NCBI GenBank assembly: GCA_030159075.1
Contig: BROG01000809.1
Location: forward strand, 62,001 to 126,000
Direction of reading: 5' to 3'
Source of the DNA: Atrina japonica
Taxonomy: Eukaryota; Mollusca; Bivalvia; Pterioida; Pinnidae
Length of the DNA: 64,000 nucleotides
Shown: positions 2,298 to 59,297 of the stretch, piece after piece
Layout: every line of letters begins with the position of its first letter
How positions within the stretch are numbered: position 1 is the first letter of the stretch
Position numbers and translations under genes: made by a program
Notes under the pieces: model-generated
What the model was told of the DNA's origin: nothing
The model's database searches: none
Seen by the model: the letters and a program-made list of their open reading frames with translations, nothing else

Positions 2298-2339
2298 TTT
2301 TATATATCTTTAAACCATTAAAGCGATTAAACTGTTCCA

Positions 2340-3300
2340 ATGATGATTTTTCCCCTGACATATAGTCTAGAATATGATAAAATGTGTGTTAAAATACATT
2401 GTCAAACACGTGAAACGTTGTAGAAGATCTTCTTTTCGAAGTTATTTGTTTTATTAGAATTTAAGTATTCCCATACCTTAAAAATCCAGGTGTACTTCCG
2501 TATGCAATGACCTTTCAAATAAACTCTTTCGCCATATCAAATGTTCATGTACTAATTCTCGATCCTTTACGCACTCAGACTATGTTAAAGTCGACCGATT
2601 TTTATGTGTTATATAATTACTTTTAAAATACAAGACGTGATTTTTGTGGGAAAGTGCATGTATTGTGTAAATATATGATTTTCAATGTTATCATGATACC
2701 TGCAGGAAATCGAATGAATATATAAATGTATAAATGTAAAAAGAATTTTTTCCGATCTTTAATGTAACCCTGAATGCTGACATTGTCAAAATCAAAACAA
2801 CATAACTGTGAATAGTATGCGTACCTCATGTTTTACTATTTTGCCGCCATGTCCGGTGGAGCTGGGCAGTTCATGATCATATGTGTCAAGAATGATAAAA
2901 ATGGGTCAAGATCACCCGATATACCCGGCACGTGGACAAGTTCAGAAACGAATGTTTTAAAATGACGAAAAAGTCCATCTCTGCCTGATTTAGATATGAA
3001 ATTATGATGTACGAAAATAAACGCAAAGGATGATAAGAATAGAATATATATTAACTGCAAATATCACGTGTTTATTGGACACTCAGTAATCTTTGTAAAA
3101 AAAATTACCGAAAGTCAATTTGCAATTCTCAAAGTAATGGCGGACAAACAGTAACTGATATTACGGGTTACGTTTGGCAAGAGTGTTGCAATTTTACACA
3201 TGCATTTGTTATTCTAACCACCAGATGGTCCCTTTGGAACATATATGAGATAAAATGTTACATAAAATGGGCATATAAAATATTTCACCTACGACAGATT
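2340..3300 (+). repeat. Dispersed repeat R1, copy 1
   Basis: About 0.95 kb that aligns in direct orientation with 15495-16402. Shared landmarks include CCCCTGACAT at the start, GAATATGATAAAATGTGTGT, a 'CACCCGATATACCCGGCAC'-type segment and CACGTGTTTATTG near the end. Both copies contain open stretches with similar residues (NIPGTW and KNRIYI in copy 2), but the frames are broken here. The family is not identified; I see no RT or transposase motif. Confidence 0.75.
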
Positions 3301-3604: not shown

Positions 3605-4850
3605 ACAGTGCAACAAAACGATATTAACGTCATAAACAAATATGTATGGTTATATATCATGAAATCAGAGTAACTGCTAAAGCCGATATTTACGTCATAA
3701 ACAAGTATATATCGTTATACATCAGTAAGATCAGGCTAACCACTAAAGCCGATATTTACGCCATAAACAAGTATGTATCGTTCTACATGAGTGAGATCAA
3801 AGTAACCACTAAATCAGATTTGTGTTTATGATGCAAATATCGGATTTAGAGATTATACGTTATACACAAGTATGTATCTATATAAATCAGATTAGAATAA
3901 CCTCTAAATCCGATATTTACGTAGTATGTATCTTCATACATCAATGACATCAGAGTCATCTTTAAAGCCGATATTTACATTATATACCGGTATGTATCGT
4001 TATACATCAATGACATCAAAGTAACCTCTAAATCCGATATTTACGTCATAAACAAGTATATATCGTTATACATCAGTAAGATCAGGCTAACCACTAAAGC
4101 CGATATTTACGCCATAAACAAGTATGTATCGTTCTACATGAGTGAGATCAAAGTAACCACTAAATCAGATTTGTGTTTATGATGCAAATATCGGATTTAG
4201 AGATTATACGTTATACACAAGTATGTATCTATATAAATCAGATTAGAATAACCTCTAAATCCGATTTTTACGTAGTATGTATCTTTATACATCAATGACA
4301 TCAGAGTCATCTTTAATGCCGATATTTACATTATATACCGGTATGTATCGTTATACATCAATGACATCAAAGTAACCTCTAAATCCGATATTTACGTCAT
4401 AAACAAGTATGTATCGTTATACATCATTGACATCAAAGAAAGCTCTAAATACGATATTTACATCATAATCATTTATGTATCGTAATACATCAGTTAGATC
4501 GGAGTAACCTCTAAATCCGATTCTTACATTATAAAAAAGTATGTATTGTATACATCAACTTACGTTATAAAAAGAAGTATCGTTATACATCAATGACATC
4601 AGAGTAACCTCTAAAGGCCGATATTTACATTATAAACAAGTATGTATCTTAATACATCAATGACTTCAGAGTTACCTCTAAATTTGATATTTACGTTTTA
4701 AACAAGTATGTATCGTTAAACATCAATGACATCAAAGTAACCTCTAAATCCGATATTTACATCATAAACATCAATGGATCGTTATACTTCAGTTAGATCG
4801 GAGTAACCTCTAAGTCCGATACTTACGTCACAAACAAATTTTTTTATATA
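3605..4850. repeat. Tandem array, ~66-bp unit with a 351-bp higher-order repeat
   Basis: The unit contains GTATGTATCGTTATACATCA, ATGACATCAAAGTAACCTCT and AAATCCGATATTTACGTCAT. It recurs with point changes and short deletions through the region. A block starting near 3701 is repeated almost unchanged from about 4052, an offset of 351 bp, so several units were amplified together. The array lies directly upstream of the DNA polymerase relic. Confidence 0.85.
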
Positions 4851-4889
4851 TATTAAAATTAATATTTTTTGATAGGATAAGCCTAGTAG

Positions 4890-7707
4890 GTATTTAACGT
4901 CTCTAAATATATCTACATATTCTATCAGAAACCAGTGAATATTTTAGAATCGAAGATGGGTCTACCACCCTATCAGTAATCCATGTCATACAACCTGTAG
5001 GTAGCGGGGATGGAAAACGAAAATATCATCTCAGTGTTGATAAAAAAAAGTCATGCTGAACAAGAAGAGAAGTTTGATACAGATCAAGATTAAAGATAAA
5101 ACCTGTTTAGCTCGTGCTATTGTAGTTGGTCGTTTTCATTGTCAGAAACCTGGACTTGGAGATGGAGACAAGTACAAAAACTGGCAACGATATTGGAAAA
5201 CTTTGATTTTAGGAGATGCAAGTAGACACACTCTTCAACGACGAGAAGCTCATGCCTTAATGCAACAAGCTGGATGTGATCCCCAGCAAGAGAGTGGACC
5301 TGAAGAATGGCAACGTTTTTAGACTGTGTTGTTACCACACTACCGTTTGAAAATATACGGTCTGAATACCAACGCAAAAGGACAGACATTAAATGTACTG
5401 TATAGTGGTGTAGGATCCGGGGCCCCCATTCACGTCTTATACGATGATCACCATTACGATTGTATAGTATCTATGTCTGGACTCTTGGAATGTAATTACT
5501 ATTGCGACCGTTGTGATGTGGGTTATAATCATGTAGAAGATCACCGATGCCCTCAATGCTGCTTTCGTTGTCTTGCACCGTCGTCCTGTGTTCCCGACAA
5601 CACGATAAAACCTATAGAATGTACACATTGTCAGGGGACATTCAAATCGACTCAGTGTTACAAGAATCATTTGAAACCTTATAGTAGTAATACAACCACT
5701 ACTCCACGTCAGCTAATGACTCGATGTCCCACTTGTCAATTATGGATGAGTAAGAAACAATATACACAACACTGTTGTCAAGAAAAGAAGAAAAAATGTC
5801 ACCATTGTAAACAGATCGTGGATCTAGACCATCGTTGTTTTATACAACGGATCCCTACTCATGATGAATCATCTTCACCCCCTTATTACATTTTCTATGA
5901 TTTTGAGTGTACCCAGGACACCGGATAACACAAACCTAATCTATGTATTGCTCATCGAGTATGTCCCCAGTGTACATCAGATGACTGGTGTGAACAATGT
6001 AAAACCATGGAGGATCATCGTATTACATTCCGAGGTCCAACGACACTCACTGATTTTTTGTCTTGTTTATTTGAAACGACCGTGTATGATGACATACATC
6101 AAAGAGAGAAACGTTTACATGATGGAGCTATAGCGATTGCTCATAACTTTAAAGGGAACGATGGACAGTTTATTTTACATCATCTAGTACATCATGCATG
6201 TGAAAAACCTGATGTGATCATGAACGGTTCTAAGATTATGTCTATGGCGACAGGAAACATCAAGTTTAAAGACTGGTGTAATTTCTTGTCATTTCCTTTA
6301 GTTTCGTTACCTAAATCTTTTGAATTGACTGAACTCAATAAAGGCTACCTTCCGCATTTGTTCAATACAAAAGCTAATGCTCATTAGATAGGAGTATATC
6401 CCCCAGCTATGTATTACAACCCAGAAGGTATGAAACATGATGTCCGTCGTGATTTTGAAGAGTGGTATCAAGACAAAATTCTAAAGGGTGAGATTTTCCA
6501 TTTGCAATGCGAATTAGAAGAATACTATGAATCGGACGTGACTGTTTTGCGACAAGCTTGTATGCATTTTTAAAGCATGTATTTGAAACTAGCCGATGTG
6601 GACCCCTTTGCTGAATCGATTACGTTTGCCAGTATGGGGAATATTGCATATCGTCGCAATCATATGCAAAAAGATACGATTGCTATCATACCTCCGCCGG
6701 GATATCCTTTGGCACGACAGTATTCCACCCTAACATTACGTTGGTTGAGTTGGACGACGTGTGAATTGAATAAATCTATAGAGAAAGGTTATGTGATCGA
6801 TCGTATCTTCGAAGTATGGCATTTCCCTGATCAGTCAAATACTTTATTTCGTAGCTATATTGATCAGTTTTAAGATTAAGCAACAGACTAGTGGTTTTCC
6901 TGCTTCCTGTCAAACAGTAGAAGACCGTCGTCAGTACCTCAAAGAGATTGAAACGAGAGAACAACTGATCATACGAGAAGAAGATGTAGAGAAAATTCCT
7001 ATCTTACGGACCATTGCTAAACTGTTTCTGAACTGTTTGTGGAGTAAATTTGCTCAACCTCGGACACAGTATGTGGAGAGTTACGAAACATTACAACAGT
7101 TACTTCAAGATGACACTCGTGATGTATTACATTTAGAACTGATTCCAAATGACGAAGGCCGTGATGAGCTAGTCATGATGCTGGTGAATTCGAAACAGAA
7201 GGATGACTTTGATGAACCCAATGGTTTTAGCAAGCAATGTAGTGCTAGCAGCCTTTACGGCGTCTTTAGCTCGGTTACATTTCTATGCCACCCTAAAAGT
7301 TTGGGAGAACGTGTGTTATATTTTGATACAGACAGTATCATTTATCAACACGACTACCCAAAGCAGTGGAATCCCACTATAATGAACAGTTTAGGAGGAT
7401 GGACAGACGAATTAGATGGCGATTGTATCTTATCCTTTGTCTCGGGAGGTCCTAAAAATTATGCGTATAAGACTCGTTAGGACAAAACGGTGTGTAAAGT
7501 CAAAGGAATAACTTTTGATAGTCATACCACTTCTACAGTAGATACATTGAAACAGTTGTTATGTGGTCAACAAAAGAAAGTGCTTGTATCGTACCCTCAT
7601 AAGAACAGCATAAAGTAAAAACACAGGCGATGACTAAAGAAGTGCGTGTCGTGTATGATAAGAGACATCGCATGGAAAACTTTTGTACTTTACCTTATGG
7701 TTATTGA
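4890..7707 (+). pseudogene. Polinton/adintovirus-type DNA polymerase B, degenerate
   Basis: This is the relic of the family B, protein-primed-type DNA polymerase that copies Polinton (Maverick) and adintovirus elements. The order of motifs matches the family. A basic segment KKRSLIQIKIKDKTCLARA lies near 5055, then a Cys/His-rich zinc region (5490-5850) and exonuclease motif I (FYDFE, about 5890). These are followed by AHNFKGNDGQFIL (about 6140), ESDVTVLRQAC (about 6530), RRNHMQKDTIAIIPPPGYP, KLFLNCLWSKF, polymerase motif C (FDTDS, about 7322) and GGPKNYAYKT. The C-terminal TLPYGY ends at 7707. In-frame stops occur near 5320, 5925, 6385, 6571 and 7478. Frame changes occur near 6865, 7215, 7290 and 7600. 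Sequence jumps from RWLSW to ELNKSIEKGY near 6760, so the palm region with motif A is missing. Two AATAAA signals follow at 7707 and 7726. Confidence 0.9.
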
Positions 7708-7784
7708 ATAAAGTGAGACTGTTTGAATAAAGTTTAATGCGTATTAGAATCTATGAAACTTTACTTTGGTGTTGTTTTTGTTGA

Positions 7785-7790
7785 TATAAA
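7785..7790 (+). promoter_or_regulatory. TATA box of the putative structural gene
   Basis: TATAAA stands 57 bp before the ATG at 7847, in the short gap after the polymerase polyadenylation signals. Similar boxes precede the BIR and zinc-knuckle genes, suggesting one promoter per gene. Confidence 0.5.
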
Positions 7791-7846
7791 ACAGAAGACA
7801 GTGAAGGGTAGGGGATCATTTATACAGTTTGATCTCAAGTACTCTC

Positions 7847-8883
7847 ATGTCGACTCACGATTCTAAAGATCATGGTAATTTTTACATGACGTTACCTAGC
7901 GATGTTAGTTTGAAAGTCTTTCCCAATAATACCTTAACAGAATTCAAAACTCATTTACCTCAAGCTTTAAGTATGATGGATAGTGAGTGGGAAATAGCTT
8001 TGAGTGAATTGATCTTTCCCAACTTAATAGAATCGATAGGATCCGATGAGAATTTCATAGATGTCATGGTTCCCCTTCACGTTCCTTTGGAATCCGTCGT
8101 GACACCTAAAAATCCCCAGGACCCCTCTACGTATCCTAAGAAAAAGGAAATGAAATATCGTCAACATGAACGTTTTACTGTAGAATTGATTAAGAAACAA
8201 GTCTCGTTAGATGATCCCCAGTTTGATCATGTCATCTCTAAAACTGATACGAAGTCAGGGATCGCTTTAGTAGAAAGTATTTGGAGACTTAAATTTCGTT
8301 CGGGGTTTTACGCGTCTCCTGCTGCTTTAATAGAGATGAAGAGATTAAACTGGGGTTTTCTAGAGCTTTTCAATCTGTTATTGATGGTATAGAAAATCTC
8401 TCTCATAAAAATACTTTTCGATTCAGGTATGACTCAGCTTTAGATCGATTTGTGATTGCGTTTAAAGACCGATCCATCTATTCCGTTCCCTTTTTAATAC
8501 GTTTTCCGAGTCTACTAGGTTATAAACTTGACTTTGAAGCCATTGACATGAATGAGGAGATAACTAAATGGATCGATGTCACACACATGCCACGGTATCC
8601 ACCCGATTTAAATATTGGTATGAGTGGTATTTATGTCTACAGTAACATTGCCGAAAGTCAAATTGTGGGTTCACAATCGTTACCGTTATTACGTGTGGTC
8701 CCTTTTCAAACGGGTCAATCGCTCAATCATCAACATTGGGAACCTTTTCATTACAATTATGTGGGTTTAAATAAAAAGTATTTTGAAACCATTGAAATAC
8801 AACTGAGAGATGACATGGGACGTAAAATTCATTTTCTAGGTGGAAAAGTGATTGCCAAACTTCATTTTCGTCGTGTCATTTAA
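7847..8883 (+). pseudogene. Polinton-associated conserved protein, probably structural, one frameshift
   Basis: About 345 codons in two frames. The first part (7847 to about 8345) has NFYMTLPSDVSLKVFPNNTL near residue 12 and then a WEIALSELIFP segment. The second part (about 8345-8883) ends with GIYVYSNIAESQIVG, LLRVVPF, FETIEIQLRDDMG and GKVIAKLHFRR. I know this combination from uncharacterised proteins that accompany Polinton/adintovirus polymerases in cnidarian, mollusc and other animal genomes. A capsid-associated (minor or penton-like) role is inferred from context, not demonstrated by a motif. One frame change near 8345 replaces the true frame with a short wrong tail ending at 8392. The start was set at the ATG at 7847, just before the conserved N-terminus. 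Confidence 0.7.
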
Positions 8884-8964
8884 TCATAAAATGAAGTGCA
8901 TCACAGGACTTTGGTCAGTTGATGACCGAGAGTCATAGTGTCCACATCGGGTATTGAACTCAAT

Positions 8965-9366
8965 ATGAAACCGTCGAAAAGAGAAAATGAAATGAATAAA
9001 GACGCGAGAAAAGAAGAAATGAAAAGACAAAAGGGGTGGAAAGGGAAGCAACAGAGAGAAGAAGAAGAGAAACAGGGAGAAGAAGAAAAACAGAGAGAAG
9101 AAGAAGAGAAACAGAGAGAATAAGAAGAGAAACAGAGAGAAGAAGGGAAATAGAGAGAAGAACAGAGAGAAAGAATGGGGGAAATGATTGAAGGTCAGGA
9201 AAAGTCAGAAGAACAGAGATGAAGGAAAAGAACAGAGAATGAAAAGAAAGAGGGGACGTCCACGAAAAGTATCCATAGAGAGAACAAAAGAACAAAGAGA
9301 AGAAGAAGGACAGATGGAAGGAGTGAAAAGAAGTAGGGGACGACCACAAAAAGTAGAACAGGAATA
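8965..9366 (+). pseudogene. K/E-rich protein with two AT-hooks, broken
   Basis: Purine-rich coding strand. From the ATG at 8965 the reading is strongly charged, with repeated QREEEEK-type units, and is interrupted by stops at 9121, 9150 and 9219. In a neighbouring frame (about 9239-9366) two AT-hook motifs are clear: KRKRGRPRKV and KRSRGRPQKV, followed by a stop. AT-hooks bind the minor groove of AT-rich DNA, so a chromatin- or genome-binding protein of the element is likely. The repetitive GA-rich sequence is prone to slippage, which explains the frame change near 9215. An alternative view is two overlapping small ORFs. Confidence 0.55.
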
Positions 9367-9367
9367 A

Positions 9368-9620
9368 ATGCCTCATGATATTTCAATGTTTCTACGACAA
9401 TGGTTAAGCGATTGTCGTCAGTCTCCAATGCACGGTGACACTTTTCATTTACAATTAAATGATAATAATGGTAACCGAGCAGAAATGATGTATCGTGTGC
9501 ATAAAGAACAACGACAAGTAGCATGGGATCCTTTTGGGTCATAGTGTAGACGTACCGATGATACAATTTGTGTTTCAGGACAAAAAACATAGCAAAAAAT
9601 ATTACTTTGGTCTGATCTAA
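9368..9620 (+). pseudogene. Small unknown ORF of the Polinton-like element, one frameshift
   Basis: It starts at an ATG right after the AT-hook stop (MPHDISMFLRQWLSDC) and reads to a stop at 9542-9544. A second frame continues from about 9536 with HSVDVPMIQFVFQDKKHSKK to a stop at 9618-9620. The tight spacing between two other element genes, and non-repetitive composition, suggest a real gene with one indel of about 83 codons. I do not recognise a family. Confidence 0.4.
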
Positions 9621-9639
9621 AAATAGATTTTATGGAGCT

Positions 9640-9645
9640 TATAAA
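9640..9645 (+). promoter_or_regulatory. TATA box of the BIR gene
   Basis: TATAAA inside CTTATAAAAAGGGGG, 64 bp before the ATG at 9709. A start of transcription near 9670 would leave a leader of roughly 40 nt. This spacing supports the ATG at 9709 over earlier non-ATG starts. Confidence 0.5.
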
Positions 9646-9708
9646 AAGGGGGTGAGAATCCACATCAGGGACAATTCACTCTCAGACACGGTGGAAAGAA
9701 CATCAAGT

Positions 9709-10236
9709 ATGGAAACATTATTTTCATTGACGATAGATGCTAGTCAGACCGTCACGGATAGTGCTCCCATGAACCGAGACATGATGGATAGTGTACCACG
9801 AACCCATCGGATAGAAGTGGATAGTGTAGCACGAATCCATCGGGTAGAAGTGGATAGCGTACCGAGAGTCAATCTGATAAAAATGACAAGGACTCCACCT
9901 ACCGAAAGGAGACAAGGTGTGACCACTTTTAAACTAAGACCTGCTACCGTCAGAGGGTTATCGTTTCATCAGGAATTAAGAACACCTTTAGCCTTACCTA
10001 ATTTTTGTACGTATGAATCCAGGTACCTGACGTTTAAAGATCATAGGCCCAAATATCTACCGGGACCTAAACAGACAGAATTAGCTAGAGCAGGATTTGT
10101 GTATTTAGGGAACAGTGACCACGTTCAGTGTTTTTCTTGTGGCATCTGTTTAAAAGATTGGGAATGAAACGATAATGCTTTTACAGAACATCGACTTTGG
10201 TCTAAAGATTGTGCTTTCAGTCAACTGGTCATATAA
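9709..10236 (+). pseudogene. BIR-domain (inhibitor-of-apoptosis type) protein, in-frame TGA
   Basis: About 175 codons. The N-terminal third carries three degenerate 10-residue repeats of the type RIHRVEVDSV (about 9784-9870). Residues ~105-175 form a BIR domain: SRYLTF, then LARAGFVYLG, then the zinc ligands CFSCGICLKDWE, and after an in-frame TGA (10165-10167) NDNAFTEHRLWSKDCAF. The pattern is C-x2-C ... H-x6-C, with the glycine and tryptophan positions typical of BIR. BIR domains bind and inhibit caspases or their activators. Oysters and other bivalves have many host BIR genes, so capture from the host is a natural origin. The TGA lies inside the domain between the Cys pair and the His, so the present copy cannot make a full fold. 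No RING domain follows. Its place between other element genes points to an accessory gene of the Polinton-like element. Confidence 0.8.
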
Positions 10237-10306
10237 AGAAAAAATAACCCCTGTGTGGAGCCTCCCCTCTGGGGACATACATGTGGCTGACGGGAAGGAG
10301 TCTAAA

Positions 10307-10312
10307 TATAAA
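10307..10312 (+). promoter_or_regulatory. TATA box of the zinc-knuckle gene
   Basis: TATAAA within AAATATAAAATAAG; a second copy is at 10326-10331. Both precede the ATG at 10380. The first has the better spacing for a short leader. Confidence 0.4.
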
Positions 10313-10379
10313 ATAAGAAGAACGGGTATAAAGTAAAGTGAAGTGTAGTGACCAAACATCATTTGAATCAGTCTTCAAC

Positions 10380-10956
10380 ATGAGTTATCCAGGATTGTCT
10401 CAGACGCACCCAAATTATTCACCTAATTGTACACCGTACATAGAAGGGGCTGATGAACTTTGATGAAGCTCTAAAAACTTTAGACCAGTTGGAAGAAAAA
10501 CACGAAAATGACGCAACCAAGGGAATGTTACGTGATGCCTTGCTATCCACCTTACAGAAAATGAGGGAAGAACTCACGACTATTACAACTAGTCTGAAAG
10601 AATTGAAGGATACACTATATCCAGAAGTCAGAACATCGTATATGGGGTACGAATATAAGCCTTCCCCACAGACTCATCCTTCTTTCATATGTGGTGAAAT
10701 TGGACATTGGTCTCCTAGATGTCCTAAGAATAACGAGTAGGCAACAGCAACAACATCAGTAAGAGTAGAACCTGAGAACAAAGTAGAAAATCGATCTCGT
10801 CAATCGGACCAGTGTTATAAATGTCATCAGTCAGGTCACTGGGCTTATGAATGTCCCGAACAGACTTCAACATGAGTCAAACGTAAACTCAACTTGATGC
10901 TCAAGAAGGGAGGCAAAGCCACCAAGAGAGTGAAAGTGGAAACCGAACAGCATTGA
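10380..10956 (+). pseudogene. Zinc-knuckle (CCHC) protein with coiled-coil-like region, broken
   Basis: It starts MSYPGLSQTHPNYSP at 10380. A frame change near 10454 leads into a charged, helix-prone segment (MNFDEALKTLDQLEEKHEN onward, to about 10620) that could form a coiled coil. Two CCHC knuckles follow. The first is SFICGEIGHWSPRC, where the leading Cys is replaced by Ser. The second, CYKCHQSGHWAYEC (about 10810-10855), is complete. Stops lie at 10738-10740, between the knuckles, and at 10873-10875, before a basic tail ending at 10956. Such knuckles bind single-stranded nucleic acid. The layout resembles retroviral Gag or CNBP-like proteins, but no capsid or RT sequence is nearby, so I place it in the Polinton-like element. 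Confidence 0.65.
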
Positions 10957-11627
10957 TTTTTTTTAGTACTGTTATCATGTAAATACGTTTACTGTCACAG
11001 CGTCAATGAATCCGAACCGACCGTTCTAGGACAAAAGCTAACGTTCTTTTGCTCCGTGCTGTATGGGCAAGATTAATTAGTGGTGAGACAAAGTGACAAA
11101 AGTTTTGTTTGCGTATTGCAAGACTGTTTCATAGTGATGAAGGTTTTAAAAAGTTAATCAGTGTTATCAAAGTTAATGTTCTCAAAGATAATGTTCTCGA
11201 AGTTAATGTTATCAAAGTTAATCAGTGTTCTCATAGTTCATTCTTATGTATTGTACATAGTCACAGGGGGACGGCCCTAATCCTCTGTCGACTATCTAAA
11301 AAGTCGGGGCATTAAACTTATTTAAAAATGATCTGGTGTTTGTGTATTTATATATATGGTGTACACGTCTAGAGTACACTTAGAGTCTAAACCTATTGAG
11401 TATAAGGTGTACATTTAGAGTACACTTAGAGTCCTGCTCTAGTATCTACAAGGTAGACACAAAGGAGTGATCGATATGGTGTAAAAACAAAACTAGAGTA
11501 GAAGGATACCAAGAGTAATCGTGTAACACAGAGTAGAAGAGATACACAGACAGAAAGAGATACAGAGAAAATAAGCGTATACAAAGGATCTATGTTTTAT
11601 TGTATAGAACTTCTCTAATCAGTCATA
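10957..11627. other. Spacer with short repeats between the element and the histone-processed genes
   Basis: No gene recognised. Short repeats of AAAGTTAATGTTCTC type lie at 11155-11235, giving a Val/Asn-rich open stretch that is not a gene. A pair of AGAGTACACTTAGAGTC copies lies at 11371-11432. Confidence 0.5.
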
Positions 11628-11667
11628 GGTTTCTTTTCGTAAAAGTTAGTTGGCCCTGAAAAGGGTC
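11628..11667 (-). promoter_or_regulatory. Histone-type 3' end signal of small gene A (stem-loop and downstream element)
   Basis: Minus strand. The stem-loop at 11652-11667 reads GACCCTTTTCAGGGCC: a 6-bp stem with one A-C mismatch and a TTTC loop. After 11 nt comes ACGAAAAGAAACC (11628-11640), identical to the element behind genes B and C. This is the form recognised by stem-loop binding protein and U7 snRNP in replication-dependent histone mRNAs. It begins 17 nt after the stop codon of gene A. Confidence 0.85.
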
Positions 11668-11683
11668 GTTTGTGTTTTAGGCT

Positions 11684-11968
11684 TTATATGGCATGGCATA
11701 AAAAGCATTTTGTCCGTTTTATCTGCCGTCTTTCTCTTTTTCTTTTTTCAGACTTCACGAGCTCAATCCATTCGTCGATATTCGATAACCAACCCACCTT
11801 TCTTTCCACTGTATCGGCGCATATCATCCATTCTTCTTATTCTTGTACTTCACCCCACATGTTTACACAGTCAGGCATGATCAAGCAATGACTATAGACT
11901 CGAGACATACTCAGCAGGGTGTGACGACACACATCACATGAGCGTTTCTTCTCCTTCTTGTTGAACAT
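11684..11968 (-). pseudogene. Small gene A: Cys-rich basic protein with in-frame TAA, histone-type 3' end
   Basis: A 95-codon frame from an ATG at 11968 to a stop at 11684, interrupted once by TAA at 11837-11839 (codon 44). The first part, MFNKKEKKRSCDVCRH..., has a C-x2-C and two further cysteines. The second part has a helical, Trp-containing stretch, a basic cluster (KSEKRKRERRQIKR) that could be a nuclear signal, and ends KCFLCHAI with another C-x2-C. Paired Cys motifs suggest zinc binding. No family is recognised and it is not a histone. Either the TAA has killed it, or only the 43-residue first part is made. The histone-type stem-loop directly after the distal stop shows that the long frame was once the functional one. 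Confidence 0.55.
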
Positions 11969-12028
11969 CACTTAGTGAAAAACAAAAACCAAAATGGAGA
12001 GTATCTATACAAAAACTATTTACAGAAT

Positions 12029-12120
12029 TATTCTCATAAACCTATGACTCATACTATTGTCTCATAAACCCTATAGCTCATTTTATTGTCTCATAAACCC
12101 TATAACTCATATTATTGTAT
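12029..12120. repeat. Three ~33-bp tandem copies between genes A and B
   Basis: CTCATAAACC, CTATAACTCAT and ATTATTGT recur three times. The copies lie between the presumed 5' end of gene A and the 3' end signal of gene B, where the promoter of gene A is expected. Confidence 0.7.
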
Positions 12121-12140
12121 ACACTGCACATTCAGTTTAA

Positions 12141-12180
12141 GGTTTCTTTTCGTAAGATATAAGTGGTCCTGAAAAGGACC
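12141..12180 (-). promoter_or_regulatory. Histone-type 3' end signal of small gene B
   Basis: Minus strand. A perfect stem-loop GGTCCTTTTCAGGACC lies at 12165-12180, then 11 nt, then ACGAAAAGAAACC at 12141-12153. The stem differs from that of gene C by a compensating base-pair change (GGT/ACC instead of GGC/GCC). This shows the pairing, not just the sequence, has been kept. Confidence 0.9.
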
Positions 12181-12259
12181 GTTGTTTTTGTCATATCTGC
12201 GATGATTCATGCACAGAATCTCTTGTTAAACGACAAACACTTCTCGTCCATCTGCTTCT

Positions 12260-12454
12260 CTACCAAACCGCAAAAACAGAATTGAGAAGTAGAATTCGTC
12301 TCAAGCGAATATCTCCTTTTCTCTGATGAAAGTTCATATTAATATTTCGTAACTTCTCTTTAGTATCACGAATAATCTGCCTAGTGTCATATACAGGCTC
12401 GATTAGAACAGGTTCGTTTTCTTGTTCCATAGTGTACTCCATAGTATATGCCAT
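12260..12454 (-). CDS. Small gene B: 64-residue unknown protein with histone-type 3' end
   Basis: An intact minus-strand frame from an ATG at 12454, starting MAYTMEYTMEQENEPVLIEP. The first third is acidic with a small MEYTME-type repeat. The rest is basic and helix-prone (RQIIRDTKEKLRNINMN, then RKGDIRLRR). There is no signal peptide or membrane segment, and no histone fold is seen. The stop is 80 nt before a perfect histone-type stem-loop. It lies back-to-back with gene C, the two ATGs being 217 bp apart and sharing a promoter region. A TTTAAAA-like box about 15 bp upstream is weak. Its function is unknown. The processing signal implies S-phase, non-polyadenylated mRNA. Confidence 0.6.
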   Translation of the reverse strand: MAYTMEYTMEQENEPVLIEPVYDTRQIIRDTKEKLRNINMNFHQRKGDIRLRRILLLNSVFAVW

Positions 12455-12671
12455 GTTTGACTTTTTAAATTTTTTGTATCACTCTTAGACGAATTTCGCC
12501 TATCACTCTTTGCGTTTTCTTTGGTGGGGTCACGTTGCCAACGACACATAGACCAATCATCAAAGAGGTCAAAGTTGACGAGGCGGAGTACGTTGCGTGC
12601 ACTATACTGCTCATATAAAAAGCAGTGGGCGTCTCATTTCACTGCGCTTCATTCCAAAAGACACAAATAAG
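12455..12671 (+). promoter_or_regulatory. Divergent histone-like promoter between small genes B and C
   Basis: For gene C there is a CCAAT box at 12553-12557 and a TATA box at 12614-12619 (CATATAAAAAGC), 53 bp before the ATG at 12672. CCAAT plus TATA with a short leader is the usual arrangement of metazoan core histone genes, which are also often divergently paired. On the gene B side only an AT-rich stretch (12463-12478) is visible. Confidence 0.55.
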
Positions 12672-12902
12672 ATGGCACAGCCAACTAAACCTATCACCAA
12701 TCTGACGCTTAACAGTCAACTATTTTGGCAGATGAAGCCACACTATGTTGAGATACTCAAGACACTCGCCCATGAATGGGAGCATTTTGAGAAACAAAAG
12801 GCCGGGATGGCGAGATTCTGTGAAGCTGCTGCGGCCCGTGCAGCAGCAGAAACGAGGAGAAAGATGGTGTACTGCGGGGACTTTGGCTGCTGCCGCCTGT
12901 AA
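12672..12902 (+). CDS. Small gene C: 76-residue unknown protein with histone-type 3' end
   Basis: An intact frame, MAQPTKPITNLTLNSQLFWQ at the start. The middle is helix-prone (HYVEILKTLAHEWEHFEKQK), followed by an Ala/Arg-rich helix (AAAARAAAETRRK) and a Cys-rich end CGDFGCC. It has no signal peptide and is neither a histone nor a protein I recognise. The TATA box is 53 bp upstream and the stop is 28 nt before a perfect histone-type stem-loop. This is the best preserved of the three genes, with promoter, frame and 3' signal all complete. A role in nuclear, S-phase-linked functions is inferred only from its mRNA 3' end. Confidence 0.7.
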   Translation: MAQPTKPITNLTLNSQLFWQMKPHYVEILKTLAHEWEHFEKQKAGMARFCEAAAARAAAETRRKMVYCGDFGCCRL

Positions 12903-12930
12903 GTCATAGGGTTTTAACCCTAAAACAAAC

Positions 12931-12970
12931 GGCCCTTTTCAGGGCCACCTTACTTACACGAAAAGAAACC
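12931..12970 (+). promoter_or_regulatory. Histone-type 3' end signal of small gene C
   Basis: Stem-loop GGCCCTTTTCAGGGCC at 12931-12946, flanked 5' by AAACAAAC and 3' by ACC as in canonical histone mRNAs. After 11 nt comes ACGAAAAGAAACC at 12958-12970. No AATAAA stands between the stop codon and the signal. Confidence 0.93.
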
Positions 12971-13309
12971 TTTACTGAACGTATGCAGTTTTTGTATGTG
13001 TTGTGTTATACTGTAGCGGTAAGTCTAACCTATAGTAAGTAAATGTGAGCATTCACTAGTTCTTTTTACTTGATCGATCAAATTTTATTAGATTGAAATT
13101 CAAAATGAGTCAATTCTAAAAATAGTAACATTAAAAACTTGAGAATAAGTTCAGTTATACCTCTGAGAGCGCATTTGGCATTCGATGCTCGAAGAGTCAA
13201 CATCGTCAGAAAACCACTACCAGCATAGGGTGAGTGTTTAATTTTTTTATTTTATATACAGTAGTACAAGAAACGTTATGAAATAATACAGATACTATTT
13301 TCACTGTCG
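12971..13309. other. Non-coding spacer
   Basis: No gene or repeat recognised; AT-rich sequence after the small-gene cluster. Confidence 0.4.
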
Positions 13310-13573
13310 GAACTTTGATATATTGTTGAAACGACGTAAATGAACAACTTCGTACTTCACACTTTTTGACACTTTGTCACTTGTGTCACTTTGAGACTTC
13401 ATAACTGAGAACGTTGCACACGTTGCAAACTTTGAAAACGACACAAACACTTGATCACTTTGACAAACTTTGAAACATGAGAACGGTACACACTTGATCA
13501 CTTTGACAAACTTTGAGAACTACACACACACACACACACACACACTTTATCACTTTGACAAACTTTGAGAACC

Positions 13574-13614
<41 letters not shown>

Positions 13615-13640
13615 ATCACTTTGGCAATCTTTGAGTACGT
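13310..13640. repeat. Minisatellite with CACTTTGACAAACTTTGA units and (CA)n runs
   Basis: ACTTGATCACTTTGACAAAC recurs about five times with variants. (CA)n tracts at about 13528-13551 and 13577-13611 lie inside the units. Confidence 0.8.
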
Positions 13641-13679
13641 TACACACTTTCATGTTCTATGATTCTCTCCTGCCGTGAG

Positions 13680-14260
13680 ATTAGTCAGCCCCTGAAAAAC
13701 TAGATATCCCATGATTCCATAGCCAAGATGGCTACCCTCCCTATACTTCCTGTTTCACAACCCACCCTCCCTCTCTGGTTTAATGCATACATTCCATATA
13801 GAGTCATCGCCCCTTTTGTTTCATCCTTATAGTTCTTACAGAGTGATCTCCCTGTTCCACCTATACAGTCTATAAAGAGTAGTCTTAGTACAAGCCTTAG
13901 TTCAAGCTGAATCGAGCTCAGCCTTCTCGCGATTGCGCATTTGATGATACACGACTCTCACCGACTGTGGCGACACCTACTGCTGGTTTCACAAACCTGG
14001 AAAAACCCAGTTTCGGTTTTAAAAATTCACTCTCAGCTCAAAACTTTAGCCGTTGACTTCTCGTGAACTCACATGACCTCTCGTGACCCCGACCTCTTGT
14101 AACGAAGGCTCTCATTGGCTCATTAGCCAAGATGGCCGCCTCCACAACCTTCCATTTCCTGTCATAGACACGCCTCCGAGCTCAACGATGGACTCTTTCT
14201 CCTTATTGCCATGACAACATGACCTCACTTCCTGTATGACGCACTTCCGGTTAGGATGTC
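13680..14260. other. Non-coding, two similar AAGATGGC-containing segments
   Basis: CATAGCCAAGATGGCTACC near 13720 and TTAGCCAAGATGGCCGCC near 14134 share a motif resembling a YY1 site. Each is followed by TTCC-rich sequence (CTTCCTGTTT and CCATTTCCTGTC). They may be remains of one repeat. No coding sequence is recognised. Confidence 0.35.
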
Positions 14261-14262
14261 AC

Positions 14263-14387
14263 AGGCGGCTCCATAGCACGCCATTTCAATTGACCAATCA
14301 GAAACCAGCAATTTGATGACGTCATCAAAAACCGTTACAAAGCGCCCCCTGGCGGCAAAATTCAAATGGCGTGCTATGGAGCTGCCT
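14263..14387. mobile_element. MITE-like element, 125 bp with 27-bp terminal inverted repeats
   Basis: The left arm (14263-14289, AGGCGGCTCCATAGCACGCC...) and the right arm (14361-14387) match in inverted orientation at 25 of 27 positions. The interior is non-coding. A clear target duplication is not visible, so it could also be a foldback element. Confidence 0.6.
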
Positions 14388-14699
14388 ATTACTACTTACG
14401 CATACGTCGATTTAAAGTAAATCCGGTTACGCCTAACACATTTCACGGAATCGACTTCGTAGAGAGCGTAAGAATTGTAAAAACATGAGATTCATAAGGC
14501 TGAAATGTAAACAATGATACATGGAACAATAAGATATAAAAAAACATTGAATGTGTGAATAAAAATTAAAGCAATATTTTATCTTACATAATTAAATACG
14601 ATAACACATACTTTGCTGGCTAGTAATATTTAATAAAATACCGAAAGTACGCATCTTTGGCGCTCGTACTTCGTAATGATAAAAACTCTTAAAATATCT

Positions 14700-15130
14700 T
14701 GATTGTTGGGGCTCCTGTACCACTTGTTATACTCTTTAGTTAGTATGACCCATTACAGTGACTCAAATATCCGTATAGCTTAGGTAGCTATTGTCGCTCC
14801 TGTGCGACTTGTTCTATTCTTAATTTAGTAAGACTCATTACAGTGAATCAGTTTTCATTATATTATAAACATAATTTTAAAGTTATAATGCTCAAGACGA
14901 TCGTTTCTGCAATTTAGATTTCATCAGTTGAGCTCCAATTTTTAATAGATTTTCTAAAGAGAAAGAGGGATCAGACAAGGCCAAATAATTTCAGTTGAGC
15001 ATTGTGGCTCCTGTGCCACTTGTTATATTCAAGTTAGTATGACCCATTGCAGGGAATCAACTATCTCTTTATCTCAAGTGAGCATTGTGCCTGTGCCACT
15101 TGTTATACTCTTATGTTAGTAGAATCAGTT
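14700..15130. repeat. Imperfect repeats with GCTCCTGTGCCACTTGTTAT core
   Basis: Four copies, near 14710, 14797, 15008 and 15088, each followed by TTAGTATGACCCATTACAG or a variant. Spacing is uneven because another dispersed element sits between copies 2 and 3. Confidence 0.75.
14864..14943 (+). repeat. Dispersed ~85-bp element D, copy 1
   Basis: ATAAACATAATTTTAAAG, then ATAATGCTCAAGACGATCGT and CATCAGTTGAGCTCCAATTT. Other copies are at 30466-30570 and 30738-30815, and inverted at 56632-56710. No coding capacity. Confidence 0.75.
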
Positions 15131-15494
15131 GTCCTTATAGCCAGATCCGTTTCGACTTTTACATAGTTTTACGTCAACAGGTTAGCATGTCTCATATCTG
15201 GTTTGCGTGAAAGTATCAACAACTTTCGACTCTCATGTACCTCATCTCAAACAATTTTATCCAAAAATGAATCACATATTCAATTTATAGTCGAGATCGA
15301 ATTAGAGGATGAAGTTTAATCAATTGTGATTATGAAATATTTGATCTAAAAAGGAGAACAGTAATAATTTACACAAAGTAAATTGCTATAAAAATGACGT
15401 TACTCATAGTGAATTACTGGGATTTTTACCCGACATAGATTTAGCCGATGTATTTGTTTAGTTTTAAGGCGATATATGCTGTCACAATGACTAT

Positions 15495-16402
15495 TTTGTC
15501 CCCTGACATTTAGTCGAGAATATGATCAAATGTGTGTTCAAATACATTGTCAAACATGTAAAATGATGTAAAAGATCTTATCCAAGTTATTTGTTTTATT
15601 AGAATGTAAGTTTTCCCGTACCTTAAAAACTCTAGCTGTATTTCCGTATGCAATGACCTTTCAGGTAAACCTTTTCGCCATATCAAATGTACTTCATAAT
15701 TCGGTCAAGGTATCTCGCTCGGACTATGTTAAAGTCGGCCAATTTTTAAATGTTTTATATTTATTTTCAAAAATATAGGACGTGATTTTGTTTTATTGCA
15801 AAGTGCATATTAGGCATAATATATGCTTTTCAGAAAATCGAATGAATATATGTATAAATATATCAGGTCACTAAAATTAAAATTTCCGATCTTTAATGTT
15901 ACCCTGAATGCTGACACTGACAAAATCAAAACAATATAACTGTGGAAAGTACGCGTACCTGACGTTTTACAATCGTGCCGCCATGCCCAGTGGAGTTGGA
16001 CTGCTCATGATCAAATGTGCCAAGAATGATAAAGCCGAGAATGCGATGGGACGAGTTACAAATGGGTCGAGATCACCCAATATACCCGGCACATGGATAA
16101 TTTCAGAAACGAATGTTTTGAAACGACGAGAAAGACAAACTTTGCCTGATTTAGGTATGAAAGGATTATGTACGAAAATAAATGCAGAGGGTGATAAGAA
16201 TAGAATATATATTAAATGCAAATAGCACGTGTTTATTGATCGTCGTAAAAATTTACCGAAAGTTAATTTGCAATGCTCAAAGTATGGCGGACAAAATATC
16301 GTTGCAATTTTACACATGCATTTGTTATTCTAACCACCAGATATATGACATAGAATATAACATAAAATGGACATGTAAAAAATTTCAACGACGACAGTTC
16401 AT
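15495..16402 (+). repeat. Dispersed repeat R1, copy 2
   Basis: Aligns along its length with 2340-3300. It holds a 105-codon open stretch (15908-16225, including NIPGTWIISETNVLKRRERQ) that is broken in copy 1. It could be the relic of a transposon ORF or a captured exon. No family is recognised, so I do not call it a gene. Confidence 0.75.
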
Positions 16403-16987: not shown

Positions 16988-17288
16988 GGTTAAATTGGGA
17001 AAAAGTATGTTTGTTTGTTTGTTGTTGTTTAACGTCCCACTCAAGAATATTTCACTTATATGGAGACGTCATCAAATGCCGGTGAAGGGCTTCAAATTTT
17101 GACCTATGCTCGGCACTTACGGCCATTGAGCAGTGAGGGTTCTTTAACGTGCCGACACTTACTGTGACAAGGGATCTCCAGTTTTTACTTTCTCATCCGA
17201 AAGACAGGAAACCAACCTGTCGCTGGCGGGACTCGAACTCACGACCTCACGATCCATAGTCTACCGACTGAGCCAGGTCGGCTCTGGG
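16988..17288 (-). mobile_element. tRNA-derived SINE family 1, near full-length
   Basis: Minus strand. The tRNA-like head is near 17288 (GCCGACCTGGCTCAGTCGGT, giving the A box), with the B-box region near 17235 (GTGAGTTCGAGTCC). The body includes a GGCCGTAAGTGCCGAGCATA core and the tail is poly(CAA)-like. It matches the copy at 31286-31556. It is a retroposed element, not a tRNA gene. Confidence 0.85.
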
Positions 17289-23655: not shown

Positions 23656-24605
23656 GAAATTGATTGTGTAATAAGTGAAAGTGAAATGCTATTGGTAAAT
23701 TAAGAAAAAGCAAGGCAAATAGTAATAATGGTAGTTCGAATGAATTCTTAATCACTTGTAAGGATATTTAATGCCTTTTTTGATATTTGAAATTCACAAA
23801 AAAGAATAGCAGATCAAGGTAGGAAAAACTCTTTATGCATTAAAAATGCGTCAGAAAAACATGTAACGATATGATTTATACACATTGTTAGGAAATTCAG
23901 AATATTTAAATATTGGTTAAAGCTCGTTAACACTGAAAATATTACATTAATCGTGTTCTTGTTGCGAGAATATGAAAGAGAATGAAGATATTTGGTTAGT
24001 TAATATTAGAAGAGAACTTAATACAATTGGTCTTGGGTATATCTGGAACATGGATAACATTGGAAATAACAATTATAATATTATTAAAAACATAATTTCC
24101 GAAATATACCAATAGTCTCTATATGGGAGAATAATCGTTTCCTCTAAATGTTTGTTATGCAGGTATCTGATATATAATATTAAATTACAGACATATTTAT
24201 GTAAGAATATTAGGTATATGAAAGAACTAACACGGATTAGGTTATCTGCACATAAATTACAATTTTAATACGGGTGTTATAGTAATATTGACCGTCAGGA
24301 TAGAAAATGTACACTATAATTTAGACGATATAATGGAGGAATTGCATTTTTTTTATTAAATGTCCAGTATATAATGATCTAAGGAATAAATATATTAAAC
24401 CTTACTATCAGTGACGACCAAGTGTGTTCATATTTGTAGAATTATTTAATGCTGATCATGTCAAAGGAATTAACAATTTATGTATTTTTTTGTATTCAGC
24501 AATAATTTTAAGACATAGTCTAATACAACCGTAAACACCAATGCATTATTATGTATCTTACATGAGTTAAACTACCTACGAATAATATTATGTATGTTAT
24601 CGTTT
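22730..24605. other. AT-rich non-coding with a second (TA)n tract
   Basis: A (TA)n run lies at 23583-23652. Otherwise no gene, domain or internal repeat is recognised. Confidence 0.5.
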
Positions 24606-24611
24606 ATTTAG

Positions 24612-25068
24612 GTTTCCGGTTTTGGTAGATTTTGAGTGGTATGTGATAGTTTCCGGTTTTGGTAGATTTGGAGTGGTATGTGATAGTTTACGGTTTTGGT
24701 AGATTTGGAGTGGTATGTGATAGTTTCCGGTTTTGGTAGATTTGGAGTGGTATGTGATAGTTTACGGTTTTGGTAGATTTGGAGTGTTAGGTGATAGTTT
24801 CCGGTTTTGGTAGATTTGGAGTGGTATGTGATAGTTTCCGGTTTTGGTAGATTTGGAGTGGTATGTGATAGTTTACGGTTGTGGTAGATTTGGAGTGGTA
24901 TGTGATAGTTTCCGGTTTTGGTAGATTTGGAGTGGTATGTGATAGTTTACGGTTTTGGTAGATTTGGAGTGGTATGTGATAGTTTACGGTTTTGGTAGAT
25001 TTGGAGTGGTATGTGATAGTTTACGGTTTTGGTAGATTTGGAGTGGTATGTGATAGTTTACGGTTTGC
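24612..25068. repeat. Minisatellite, 37-bp unit, about 12 copies
   Basis: Unit TTTCCGGTTTTGGTAGATTT followed by GGAGTGGTATGTGATAG. Copies alternate between TTTCCGG and TTTACGG starts, suggesting duplication of two-unit blocks. Very high identity indicates recent expansion. Confidence 0.93.
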
Positions 25069-25777
25069 ATTGATTACATAAGACATAATTTACTACAACC
25101 GTAAAGGATATGCATAATGATGACATTACTAGATTTCGGTATTTAGATGTAAATAGATTAGCGTAAACGATAACGATTTAAATAAAACAGTTATATACAG
25201 TCTGACTAATGTTTAGAGTCTTTTATATGAATTATACTTAATTTACATGGTCCCAGATAACACAATATGGGAATTGATTTTACACCTCTGACTTTGTGTT
25301 ATATCGATTACGTCAATGCCTTGTTTCTCATTCACTTCTGGAAACGGAAATAAATGTTTGTCATTATGAATTCAAAACATGTTTAAATGCAATGTGCCCT
25401 GAGCAACATATAGTCATCGTGGGAAATTGTCCAACAGGAGAGATATATATTCGGTGGTAAATAATCTGCCGATATCAAAATGTTAACGAAAACGAAATAT
25501 GTCGGACAAAACAAAAAATGCAGTGATTTCACAAAGAAAGTACCTGTAGACCTAACTCGAGTTACTTTTTTATTTACGTGGACATAGTTTCAGTTCGTAA
25601 ACATATGCTTACTCGTTAACCTGTGGTCAGGATCGGTTTAGACGGTTAGAAACAAAATTCTATTATTTCAGATTATTAAATGAACATGACATTGACGTGC
25701 AAAGTCATTACAGCGATCGTTAATAGTAATGTTCAATATGACTTCATATTATCGCTAAGTTGATTATTAGATTCTGG

Positions 25778-25990
25778 TTGTTGTTGTTGTTGTTGTTGTT
25801 TAATGTCCCAACCAAGAATCTTTCACTCATGGAGACGTCACCAAATTCAGATGAAGTGCTTCAAATTTTGGCCTATGCTCGGCACTTACGGCCATTTAGC
25901 AGTGAGGATTCTTTGACTACTTCACGTACTGTGACATTGGACCTCGGTTTTTACTGTCTTATTCAAAGGACAGGAAAAGCCAGCCGCCTA
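25778..25990 (-). mobile_element. SINE family 1, head missing
   Basis: The tail (CAA)n, the body with CGAGCATAGGCCAAAATTTG and the region near the head are recognisable on the minus strand. The tRNA-like head is absent and the left end is an expanded (GTT)n tract. Confidence 0.75.
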
Positions 25991-31109: not shown

Positions 31110-33020
31110 TTCATCACAAATCTAGGAATTACTATGTCGGATTTTTCAGTTGTTTATATGGCAGGAGAGAAAATTGTCGTGTCAATTAGTAGATGTTTTA
31201 GAGAAACCTTTAAGGAACATACAATTAGTAGGATCGTCATTGCGCGTTGTAAATTTCTTATGCCATCGAAAACGTCGTAATATTTAGCCGGCCTGGCTCA
31301 GTCGGTAGCGCGCTCGACTCTTGGTTGTGAGTTCAAGTCAAACCGGCGGCAGGCTGGTTTCCTGTCCTTTGGATGGGAAAGCAAAACTCGAGGTCCCGTG
31401 TCTCTGTTGGTGTCGGCACTTTAAAGAACCTTCACAGCTCAATGGCCGTATGTGCCGAGCATAGGCCAAAATTTGAAGCCATTTACCGGCATCTGGTGAC
31501 ATCTCCATATGAGTGAAAGATTCTTGAGTGGGGCGTTAAAATCAATGAATAAAACAAACGCCGTAATTTTCAAACGAAATTGTACTGTTTGCAAGCACAA
31601 CACAATTGCCATGTATATAGCTATAATTTCAGCCTACTAAAACACGTGTAATTTGTACGATATCGTCATTATTGATTGTTGAATATTTATTTTTTTCTAT
31701 TTTGAAAATAAACGTAGGTTATTTATCTGTGGTAGAAAATACTGCGTCATTTTTCTATGGTGAAAAATATTACTGTGCCTTTTCTAGATCCTACAAAAAA
31801 GTTATCTGGAACACGGGTAATTTTTCCTACTGGTATGGGTGAATAGACCTTTTTGGAGTTGATTTTTTCTGTTACCATTTGTCATAGTAGTATGCAACTT
31901 CAGAGTTCTCCCTGTTAAACATTTTATCTTTTATATATAACCTGGAATCTAGATCTCATGCATTGCTAGATGTCAGGTGTGAAAAACAGTCTACAAGGAA
32001 CTGACGGCACTTGTAGTCGTTACATGAAAGGATTTCAACATTTAAAATCAACAATTAAATCCCAGGAGAAGAACTAAGACACAATATCATTGAATTTTGT
32101 CAATGTCATTTTATTACGAAACCGGAAGCGACCTTGCTCGACATTCTGTTGAGGTCACATGATATGAACACTAACTATTCCGACAAAACTGTACGGAATG
32201 GAACAAACCTAAAAAGTGTAATGGGTATTCATGATTCCTACGTAGCAAAATGATCGAGACCGAGTAGTTTTTCTATGTGCTTGAGAACTAAGTCATTGGT
32301 GTAATCATAATTCCTACGTTATTGTGTATAAATTAGTAAAACGATGGGTATCACTCTTCCAATTGTTTTGGTTACGAGTCAGTCAACCGTAAGCATGACT
32401 TAGCCAAAAAGGATACGAATTGAGATTGGCACGAACTGAGATGGGTCCGAGTTTACCAACATTCCACAAAGACGTCAACACGTTGCCATACAGGTAACAA
32501 ACAAACAAAACACAGGAAAAAAGAAAAACAAGAAGATATATAGAATCGATAAAGAAATTGTGCTGTACATTTGGGAACAGAAATAGAGCGTCGAAATGCT
32601 TTGAGGAAGGAAATGAAGCTGAAAACTAATTGATAATTTGCCACCCTTCCTTGAATTTCCCCTGAAGCAACCTTTATCTGTCAAGGCTATTTATATAACA
32701 GTTCTGTTCAATCGTGGAGTTACAAACTTGTCGGAGAATACCAATACATTCTTTTGTTTTTATCTGTTTAACTAGTAAGTGATAAAAGTATATGTATAGA
32801 AATACAATATTTTTATTTAATTATTAATAATTTTCGATGAAATACTACTTGACATGCTTTCCGTATAGATGTAACAGAAGTGACCGGTACACGTGCGATC
32901 GCTAATTAGGAGTGTTTGTACCACGTTGTTTTTATCATTTTCTGACTAATTGCAGTGTATTTGTGCATTACAGTGTGTCTCTAAATTGTAAAATGTGTGA
33001 ATCGGAGAACTTTTCACGAT
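31110..33020 (+). repeat. Dispersed family R2, copy B (with nested SINE)
   Basis: 31120-31260 matches 43275-43400 (GGATTTTTCAGTTGTTTATA and TAGGATCGTCATTGCGCGT). 31700-32700 matches 43480-44330. Its end matches copy A. SINE family 1 lies inside at 31286-31556 and is absent at the matching place in copy C. Confidence 0.75.
31286..31556 (+). mobile_element. tRNA-derived SINE family 1, full-length
   Basis: The head GCCGGCCTGGCTCAGTCGGT carries an A box; GTGAGTTCAAGTC is the B-box region. The body includes TGTGCCGAGCATAGGCCAAA and the tail ends AATGAATAAAACAAAC. It is inserted in R2 copy B. Confidence 0.88.
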
Positions 33021-47059: not shown

Positions 47060-47237
47060 TCAAGAATATTTCACTCATATGGAGACGTCACCAAATGTCG
47101 GTGAAGGGCTTCAAATTTTGGCCTATGCTCGGCACTTACGGCCGTTGAGCAATAAGGGTTCTTTAACGTGCCGACACCTACTGTGAACTCTCGACCTCAC
47201 GATCCAGAATCGAGCGCGCTACCACGACCGGCTCATT
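47060..47237 (-). mobile_element. SINE family 1, internally deleted
   Basis: Head region near 47230 (GCCGGTCGTGGTAGCGCG) and body with GCCGTAAGTGCCGAGCATAG. The middle between head and body is missing. Confidence 0.75.
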
Positions 47238-59279: not shown

Positions 59280-59297
59280 AAGCCTGGTATACCTGCG

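Follow-up and report, generated by a model that had tools for sequence, protein, structure and literature searches.

Histone-type RNA end signals behind small non-histone genes of a putative Polinton-type element in Atrina japonica

The genome of Atrina japonica holds hundreds of histone-type RNA end signals, and in the copies that were read they stand behind small non-histone genes. The 64,000-nucleotide stretch analysed here (the window) probably carries one copy, now decayed, of a Polinton-type mobile element. The small genes of this element end in such signals, which would likely route their transcripts through the SLBP and U7 snRNP of the host. We give this reading a probability of roughly 0.7. 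In metazoans, as described in excerpts of two sources, SLBP binds the stem-loop, U7 snRNP pairs with a downstream element, and cleavage yields an S-phase-coupled mRNA without poly(A) (PMC5011920, PMC9756948).

Signals and genes in the window

The original prediction had described three 16-nt stem-loops with a TTTC loop and a 6-bp stem, each followed after 11 nt by the same downstream element. Length and loop were found as described, and so was the element: ACGAAAAGAAACC occurs exactly three times in the window, each time 11 nt behind one stem-loop. The stem has six pairs in B and C, but five in A, where an A.C mismatch occupies the second pair. The signals and their genes are as follows.

11628-11640, minus strand: downstream element of A, exact ACGAAAAGAAACC
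11652-11667, minus strand: stem-loop A, five standard pairs and one mismatch, RF00032 score 24.3 bits
11684-11968, minus strand: gene A, broken into pieces 11684-11827 and 11837-11968, which lie in different frames
11994-12034, plus strand: remnant of the start of a fourth gene, D, read from alignment to copy L024
12141-12153, minus strand: downstream element of B, exact ACGAAAAGAAACC
12165-12180, minus strand: stem-loop B, six pairs, RF00032 score 35.7 bits
12260-12454, minus strand: gene B, 64 aa, shortened
12455-12671, no strand: space between the divergent genes B and C, with TATA at 12614 (plus) and CCAAT at about 12551 (plus)
12672-12902, plus strand: gene C, ORF of 76 aa
12931-12946, plus strand: stem-loop C, six pairs, RF00032 score 38.6 bits
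12958-12970, plus strand: downstream element of C, exact ACGAAAAGAAACC

A search with GGYYCTTTTCAGRRCC, allowing up to two mismatches, gave three matches in the window against 0.16 expected, and none of 100 shuffles of the window contained three or more such stem-loops. The Rfam model of the histone 3′ UTR stem-loop (RF00032) has a gathering score of 34, which B and C pass, while A stays below it. Between stems B and C one pair is exchanged in a truly compensating way, with T-A in B and C-G in C, in agreement with the earlier claim. The sites also lie close behind stop codons, as had been noted, although the distances of 17-80 nt given then are corrected by measurement to 16 nt (A), 79 nt (B) and 28 nt (C).

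Across the three sites, 26 of the 29 positions of stem-loop and downstream element agree, compared with 3 of the 11 spacer positions (Fisher p 0.0003). The downstream element is purine-rich, and its distance is the same at all three sites. Because the likeness of the three modules runs on to an ACTGA behind the downstream element, they appear to share ancestry. The 5′ end of human U7, used as a stand-in for that of the host, pairs with the downstream element at chance level (72 of 500 shuffles pair equally well or better). The literature consulted on bivalve or mollusc histone ends yielded no mollusc downstream element for comparison.

None of the three proteins is a histone, as the original prediction had it. 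With stop codons read as X, no Pfam histone family matched in six frames of 11500-13101, and on this ground degraded histone genes were rejected as an explanation. The proteins of B, C and D and the pieces of A likewise matched no histone family. The description of the block as three small genes fits C, which at 76 aa is similar in length to the eight C ORFs of other copies (62-81 aa). It does not fit A, which lies in two frames, or B, whose 64 aa compare with 79-89 aa in 10 of the 15 B ORFs elsewhere. Genes A and B of the window are therefore damaged, whereas C has a normal length among the copies.

Genomic copies and a fourth gene

The source genome assembly (832 Mb, 2347 contigs) was searched for the pattern of loop, spacer and downstream element. 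It contains 502 exact matches (257 and 245 by strand), whereas a reversed control pattern matched once (0 and 1 by strand). Most of the 100 matches listed, out of the 502, fall by eye into three spacer classes like those of A, B and C, and the same 100 include 21 places where at least two sites are clustered. In viral contigs the pattern of loop and downstream element was absent, and two proteins of the window had no relative there. Three stem-loop matches in those contigs were judged to be chance, as Rfam gave no support at E 0.01. Prokaryote genome contigs contained no pattern match and no protein relative.

From the matches, a set of 28 loci at 27 places was assembled, consisting of 20 of the 21 multi-site places and eight loci returned by the search, of which L005 and L006 together make up the remaining multi-site place. 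Homologues with conserved stem-loops, for which the original prediction had proposed a search, were found among these genome copies by tblastn and Rfam. By tblastn (E up to 1e-3), C has a relative in 20 of the 28 loci and B in 26, and the two A pieces have relatives in 24 and 27. At the Rfam model's own threshold, 34 sites passed in the ten core loci submitted (of 20), with all four sites passing in six of the ten. The claim that the signals are of the histone kind thus holds for these 34 sites and for B and C of the window, and fails for A of the window.

Three proved too low a number of genes. A looser scan of the 20 core loci found a stem-loop D on the plus strand between A and B in all 20, with TAGAAAAGTAATC or a near variant as its downstream element. 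In three copies (L018, L024, L025) this stem-loop lies 13 nt behind a 119-aa ORF starting MESIYTEA, and in L022 the D ORF encodes a basic protein of 122 aa (pI 10.5). The gene order in the fuller copies is A(-) D(+) B(-) C(+), that is, two divergent pairs, A/D and B/C. In the window, a deletion of about 454 bp at 12034 removed D and its stem-loop except for the start of the gene. A fifth stem-loop lies near the left end in two of four left-end pieces, on the minus strand in both (L034, 3543-3558; L036, 4457-4472). In L034 it stands 96 nt behind an 81-aa ORF, and in L036 no ORF was found ahead of the stem.

In the copies, the stem-loops lie on the coding strand, close behind stop codons and with the downstream element last, at a distance of 11 or 12 nt. 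The stem-loop starts 24-31 nt behind the stop in all eight C ORFs and 5-13 nt behind it in all four D ORFs. The gap is 9-20 nt in 9 of 12 A ORFs and 25-27 nt in 10 of 15 B ORFs; in two more B ORFs the distance is 75 and 95 nt, and a stem-loop within 160 nt is absent from three ORFs each of A and B. The signals themselves vary among copies. In L004, L017 and L019 the C stem-loop has a TTTA loop and the downstream element TCGAAAAGAAACC or one near it, which points to an older subfamily whose signals have changed. In L007, L012, L016, L020, L023, L026 and L028, among others, ACGAGAAGAAACC replaces ACGAAAAGAAACC as the downstream element of B.

A TATA motif within 120 nt upstream is present in all eight C ORFs, in 1 of 15 B ORFs, and in none of the 12 A or four D ORFs. 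A poly(A)-type signal (A[A/T]TAAA) within 150 nt of the stop is found for A (10 of 12) and B (13 of 15), once for D (1 of 4) and never for C (0 of 8). As it lies behind most A and B stops, A and B could also be polyadenylated. In copy L032, two signals of this kind follow shortly after the stop of the element's polymerase gene, and in the window two lie behind the polymerase at 7707 and 7726. None was present behind three other element ORFs tested (one protein of unknown function and two with an AT-hook), so that a split into two gene classes is not clean.

Proteins B and C had no homologue at E up to 1 in a large protein collection. Against solved structures, protein C reached a best E of 0.51 and protein D had no match. 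The predicted model of protein C is mostly helical and weak (pTM 0.42), with a best E of 0.64 in a fold search. Pfam matches of protein C to CHRDL_1_2_C (E 0.0016) and of protein D to DUF1599 and NYD-SP28 were dismissed, all being weak and below their cut-offs. In the copies, the proteins of A, B, C and D all end in a short basic stretch followed by at least one cysteine. This common pattern may reflect a distant common origin or a shared function. The proteins are small, mostly basic and cysteine-tailed; that they bind the DNA of the element is a guess.

The mobile element

The suspicion that the genes are virus-like is supported: the element that carries them is itself virus-like and occurs in many copies. 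Its remains in the window are the following.

4936-14396, plus strand: decayed copy of the putative Polinton-type element, from homology to copies C43 and C62; left terminal repeat missing, right end at 14396
5053-7480, plus strand: gene of a protein-primed DNA polymerase, broken into several pieces (DNA_pol_B_2, E 1.3e-7, 6007-6384; phage DNA polymerase family, E 2.4e-4, 7175-7477)
7847-8883, plus strand: protein of unknown function, ORFs in two pieces (7847-8392 and 8548-8883)
9709-10167, plus strand: BIR (inhibitor of apoptosis) gene, interrupted by a stop codon (BIR, E 7.2e-12; 2.3e-18 with X at stops)
10453-10740, plus strand: piece of a zinc-knuckle (CCHC) gene (zf-CCHC, E 6.3e-4, just under its cut-off)
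13923-14396, plus strand: region of the right terminal inverted repeat, an inverted match to the left end of the copies and a direct match to their right end

In copy L032, DNA_pol_B_2 is found in three ORFs (E 4.2e-11, 4.1e-4 and 4.5e-11). One polymerase piece of the window had no match among solved structures. The protein at 7847-8883 corresponds to a single 242-aa ORF in copy L038, and its piece 7847-8392 has one relative (62% over 55% of the piece). We take it to be comparable to the worm F54H12.2 protein of Mavericks; its structure model was useless (pLDDT 38). A further element ORF matches an AT-hook (L038, 9172-9867; L032, 9341-9922), which would fit a DNA-binding protein. BIR and zinc-knuckle relatives each occur in 22 of the 28 loci, some of which are too short to reach them.

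Starting from the block, four copies were traced outward. Their left pieces begin to match one another 2.3-3.6 kb inside. The right pieces are mutually unlike, except for an inverted match of 758 nt between L033 and L039, which we have taken for an unrelated repeat. Terminal inverted repeats, 0.54-0.68 kb long and 80-92% alike, bound three of the four copies; the fourth (L036/L018) has none, and what lies on its right is unlike the other copies, the right part of the element being absent. Both copies whose ends were read begin with AGTA and are bounded by 6-bp target duplications, AATTAC in C43 (13,046 bp) and CCGGTC in C62 (12,257 bp). A target-site duplication of 6 bp is a defining feature of Polintons/Mavericks.

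Judged by its polymerase, terminal inverted repeats and target duplications, the element is of the Polinton type. It resembles Polintons/Mavericks in its protein-primed DNA polymerase B, in its terminal inverted repeats and 6-bp target duplications, and in its many genomic copies. In contrast to them, no RVE-type integrase, packaging ATPase, cysteine protease or capsid protein was recognised by Pfam in six frames of window positions 4801-11602 and 12980-15478 (X at stops) or in ten ORFs of the copies. We therefore speak of a Polinton-type element and not of a complete Polinton. Its length in two copies is 12-13 kb, as opposed to the 15-20 kb given for Polintons in the part of the description consulted, where nine elements without capsid genes also have no protease and ATPase (PMC4028283). 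The histone-type 3′ ends on small genes are a further difference, being absent from that part of the description.

Several repeats surround or adjoin the element. An array of 66-bp-type repeats (3613-4837) lies directly left of the element copy, where the left terminal repeat should be. The copy is flanked by an old direct repeat whose two units, each about 1 kb long, are 75% identical (2318-3297 and 15464-16397); it was considered as the end of the element and rejected, as it is not that end. Also rejected was the idea that modules A and C mark the ends of a 1.3-kb transposon, since the module stands behind internal genes too and the real ends lie elsewhere. A dispersed repeat, 82-94% alike, occurs at 17009-17283, 25790-25977, 31286-31559 and 47060-47186; it resembles a tRNA-derived SINE, and the same repeat adjoins the element in copies L026 and L038. 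The window further contains a tandem array of 37-bp units (24501-25166) and a retrotransposon (58074-61819) that encodes domains of an aspartyl protease, a reverse transcriptase and an RNase H, which we assume to be Gypsy-like.

Conservation, rival readings and the proposed route

Selection on the proteins was estimated from the ORFs as they stand, as summed dN over summed dS. Pairs with fewer than 40 codons or with dS outside 0.02-2 were dropped, and the pairs are not independent of one another. For C the ratio is 0.22 (8 sequences; all 25 retained pairs below 1); it is 0.44 for D (4 sequences; 6 of 6), 0.55 for A (12 sequences; 46 of 64) and 0.67 for B (15 sequences; 77 of 94). By this measure, protein C is under purifying selection, and A and B, with ratios of about 0.6, are weakly constrained.

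A scan for motif likeness found stem-loops A, D, B and C in 20, 19, 20 and 19 of the 20 core loci; in 17, 16, 15 and 18 of the loci that have the respective stem-loop, every one of the six pairs is a standard one. Since the loci were picked by exact downstream elements of the A, B and C types, the conservation of those classes is inflated in these counts and in the mean pairwise identities over the 20 loci (stem-loops 0.93-0.96, spacers 0.89-0.94, downstream elements 0.94-1.00). The 40 nt before and behind have identities of 0.51-0.85 and 0.70-0.79, values that indels lower because the comparison was ungapped. D played no part in the choice of loci, though its detection itself required likeness to the motif; here the stem-loop has 0.93, the downstream element 0.98 and the 40-nt flanks 0.85 and 0.77. 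As the spacer is nearly as alike as the stem-loop, similarity between copies is by itself not enough to set the motif apart, and it gives no clean sign of selection on the motif alone.

The signals might therefore be passengers from a past capture of histone gene ends, with no present use and alike through recent common descent. The similar spacers, the weak constraint on A and B, and the many broken copies, that of the window included, are all in line with this. However, four different genes carry the signal, and D is kept even though it did not guide the choice of loci. The firmer evidence of conservation comes from C and B. The C proteins have diverged strongly (median dS 0.86), whereas 18 of 19 C stem-loops keep their six pairs, some with another loop base, and B retains a third stem pair of its own, T-A, unlike A, C and D. 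Unused passengers are, in our view, unlikely.

Still less likely, we think, is that the hairpin modules are parts acting at the DNA level, such as pieces of terminal repeats or sites of replication, packaging or recombination, which merely resemble histone 3′ ends. In favour of it, modules A and C are 50-nt inverted counterparts of each other, the C module of L024 has an inverted match (82.5% over 63 nt) in a piece close to the left end of L032, and a stem-loop is present in the left-end region of L034 and L036. Nevertheless, the module is also found behind the internal genes B and D, always on the coding strand and with the downstream element last, and the real ends of the element lie elsewhere. 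The likeness, moreover, goes beyond a mere hairpin to the flanks of the histone model, the loop and the downstream element. That the block represents host S-phase genes or what is left of a histone cluster, with an unrelated insertion next to it, seems very improbable. In the window alone, the block does stand to the right of the recognisable viral genes. The copies contradict such a reading, as the block recurs together with the BIR and zinc-knuckle genes and lies inside terminal repeats and target duplications, and the six frames contain no histone family.

We thus favor small genes of a Polinton-type element that use the histone route. Along this route, host SLBP would bind the hairpins of A to D and U7 snRNP would pair with the purine-rich downstream element. 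Cleavage between the two would leave short capped mRNAs without poly(A), with S phase as the main time of their production and translation. For the polymerase gene, with AATAAA close behind it, ordinary polyadenylation would be expected instead. If the A to D transcripts follow the histone route, their proteins would be made during host DNA copying, and would appear when host replication also lets the element copy itself; this would suit an element with its own DNA polymerase. Processing removes the downstream element from mature histone mRNA, so a reverse-transcribed copy of such an mRNA would not have supplied it; the likelier origin is a capture of histone gene DNA or an evolution in steps.

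Known systems offer partial parallels. Like metazoan replication-dependent histone genes, the genes described here have an RF00032-type stem-loop near the stop, a purine-rich downstream element and an arrangement as divergent pairs of short genes; in contrast, their proteins are non-histone, they lie on a mobile element, and their use of SLBP and U7 is a proposal. The pre-mRNA of human H2AC18 combines stem-loop/HDE and poly(A) signals, and a signal of the poly(A) type likewise follows the stem-loops of A and B. In H2AC18, according to the excerpt consulted, that signal overlaps the HDE, whereas here it follows some tens of bases behind, on a non-histone gene (PMC9756948). Adomaviruses, with histoid genes of which one comes from a Tegillarca clam dataset, are another case of an animal DNA virus drawing on histone biology; as far as the excerpt goes, the protein is histone-like there, while here the RNA end is histone-like and the proteins are not (PMC11071296). 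One library of open-access literature, judged by title and start of abstract, listed no report of a viral, transposon or non-histone use of the histone 3′ signal.

Going further, we lean toward the view that an animal Polinton lineage captured the histone 3′-end code and spread it over its own gene cassette, so timing accessory proteins to host replication via SLBP and U7. This would be the first non-histone, and the first virus-like, gene set known on the pathway. Histone mRNAs have been described, in the excerpt consulted, as a unique class without the poly(A) tail of all other eukaryotic transcripts (PMC12775136). The many diverging natural sequences offer material for testing recognition by SLBP and U7. 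If our reading is true, a mobile element with hundreds of histone-type ends, which stand behind non-histone genes in the copies read, would break the histone-only rule, and would represent a new way for a virus-like element to couple its expression to S phase.
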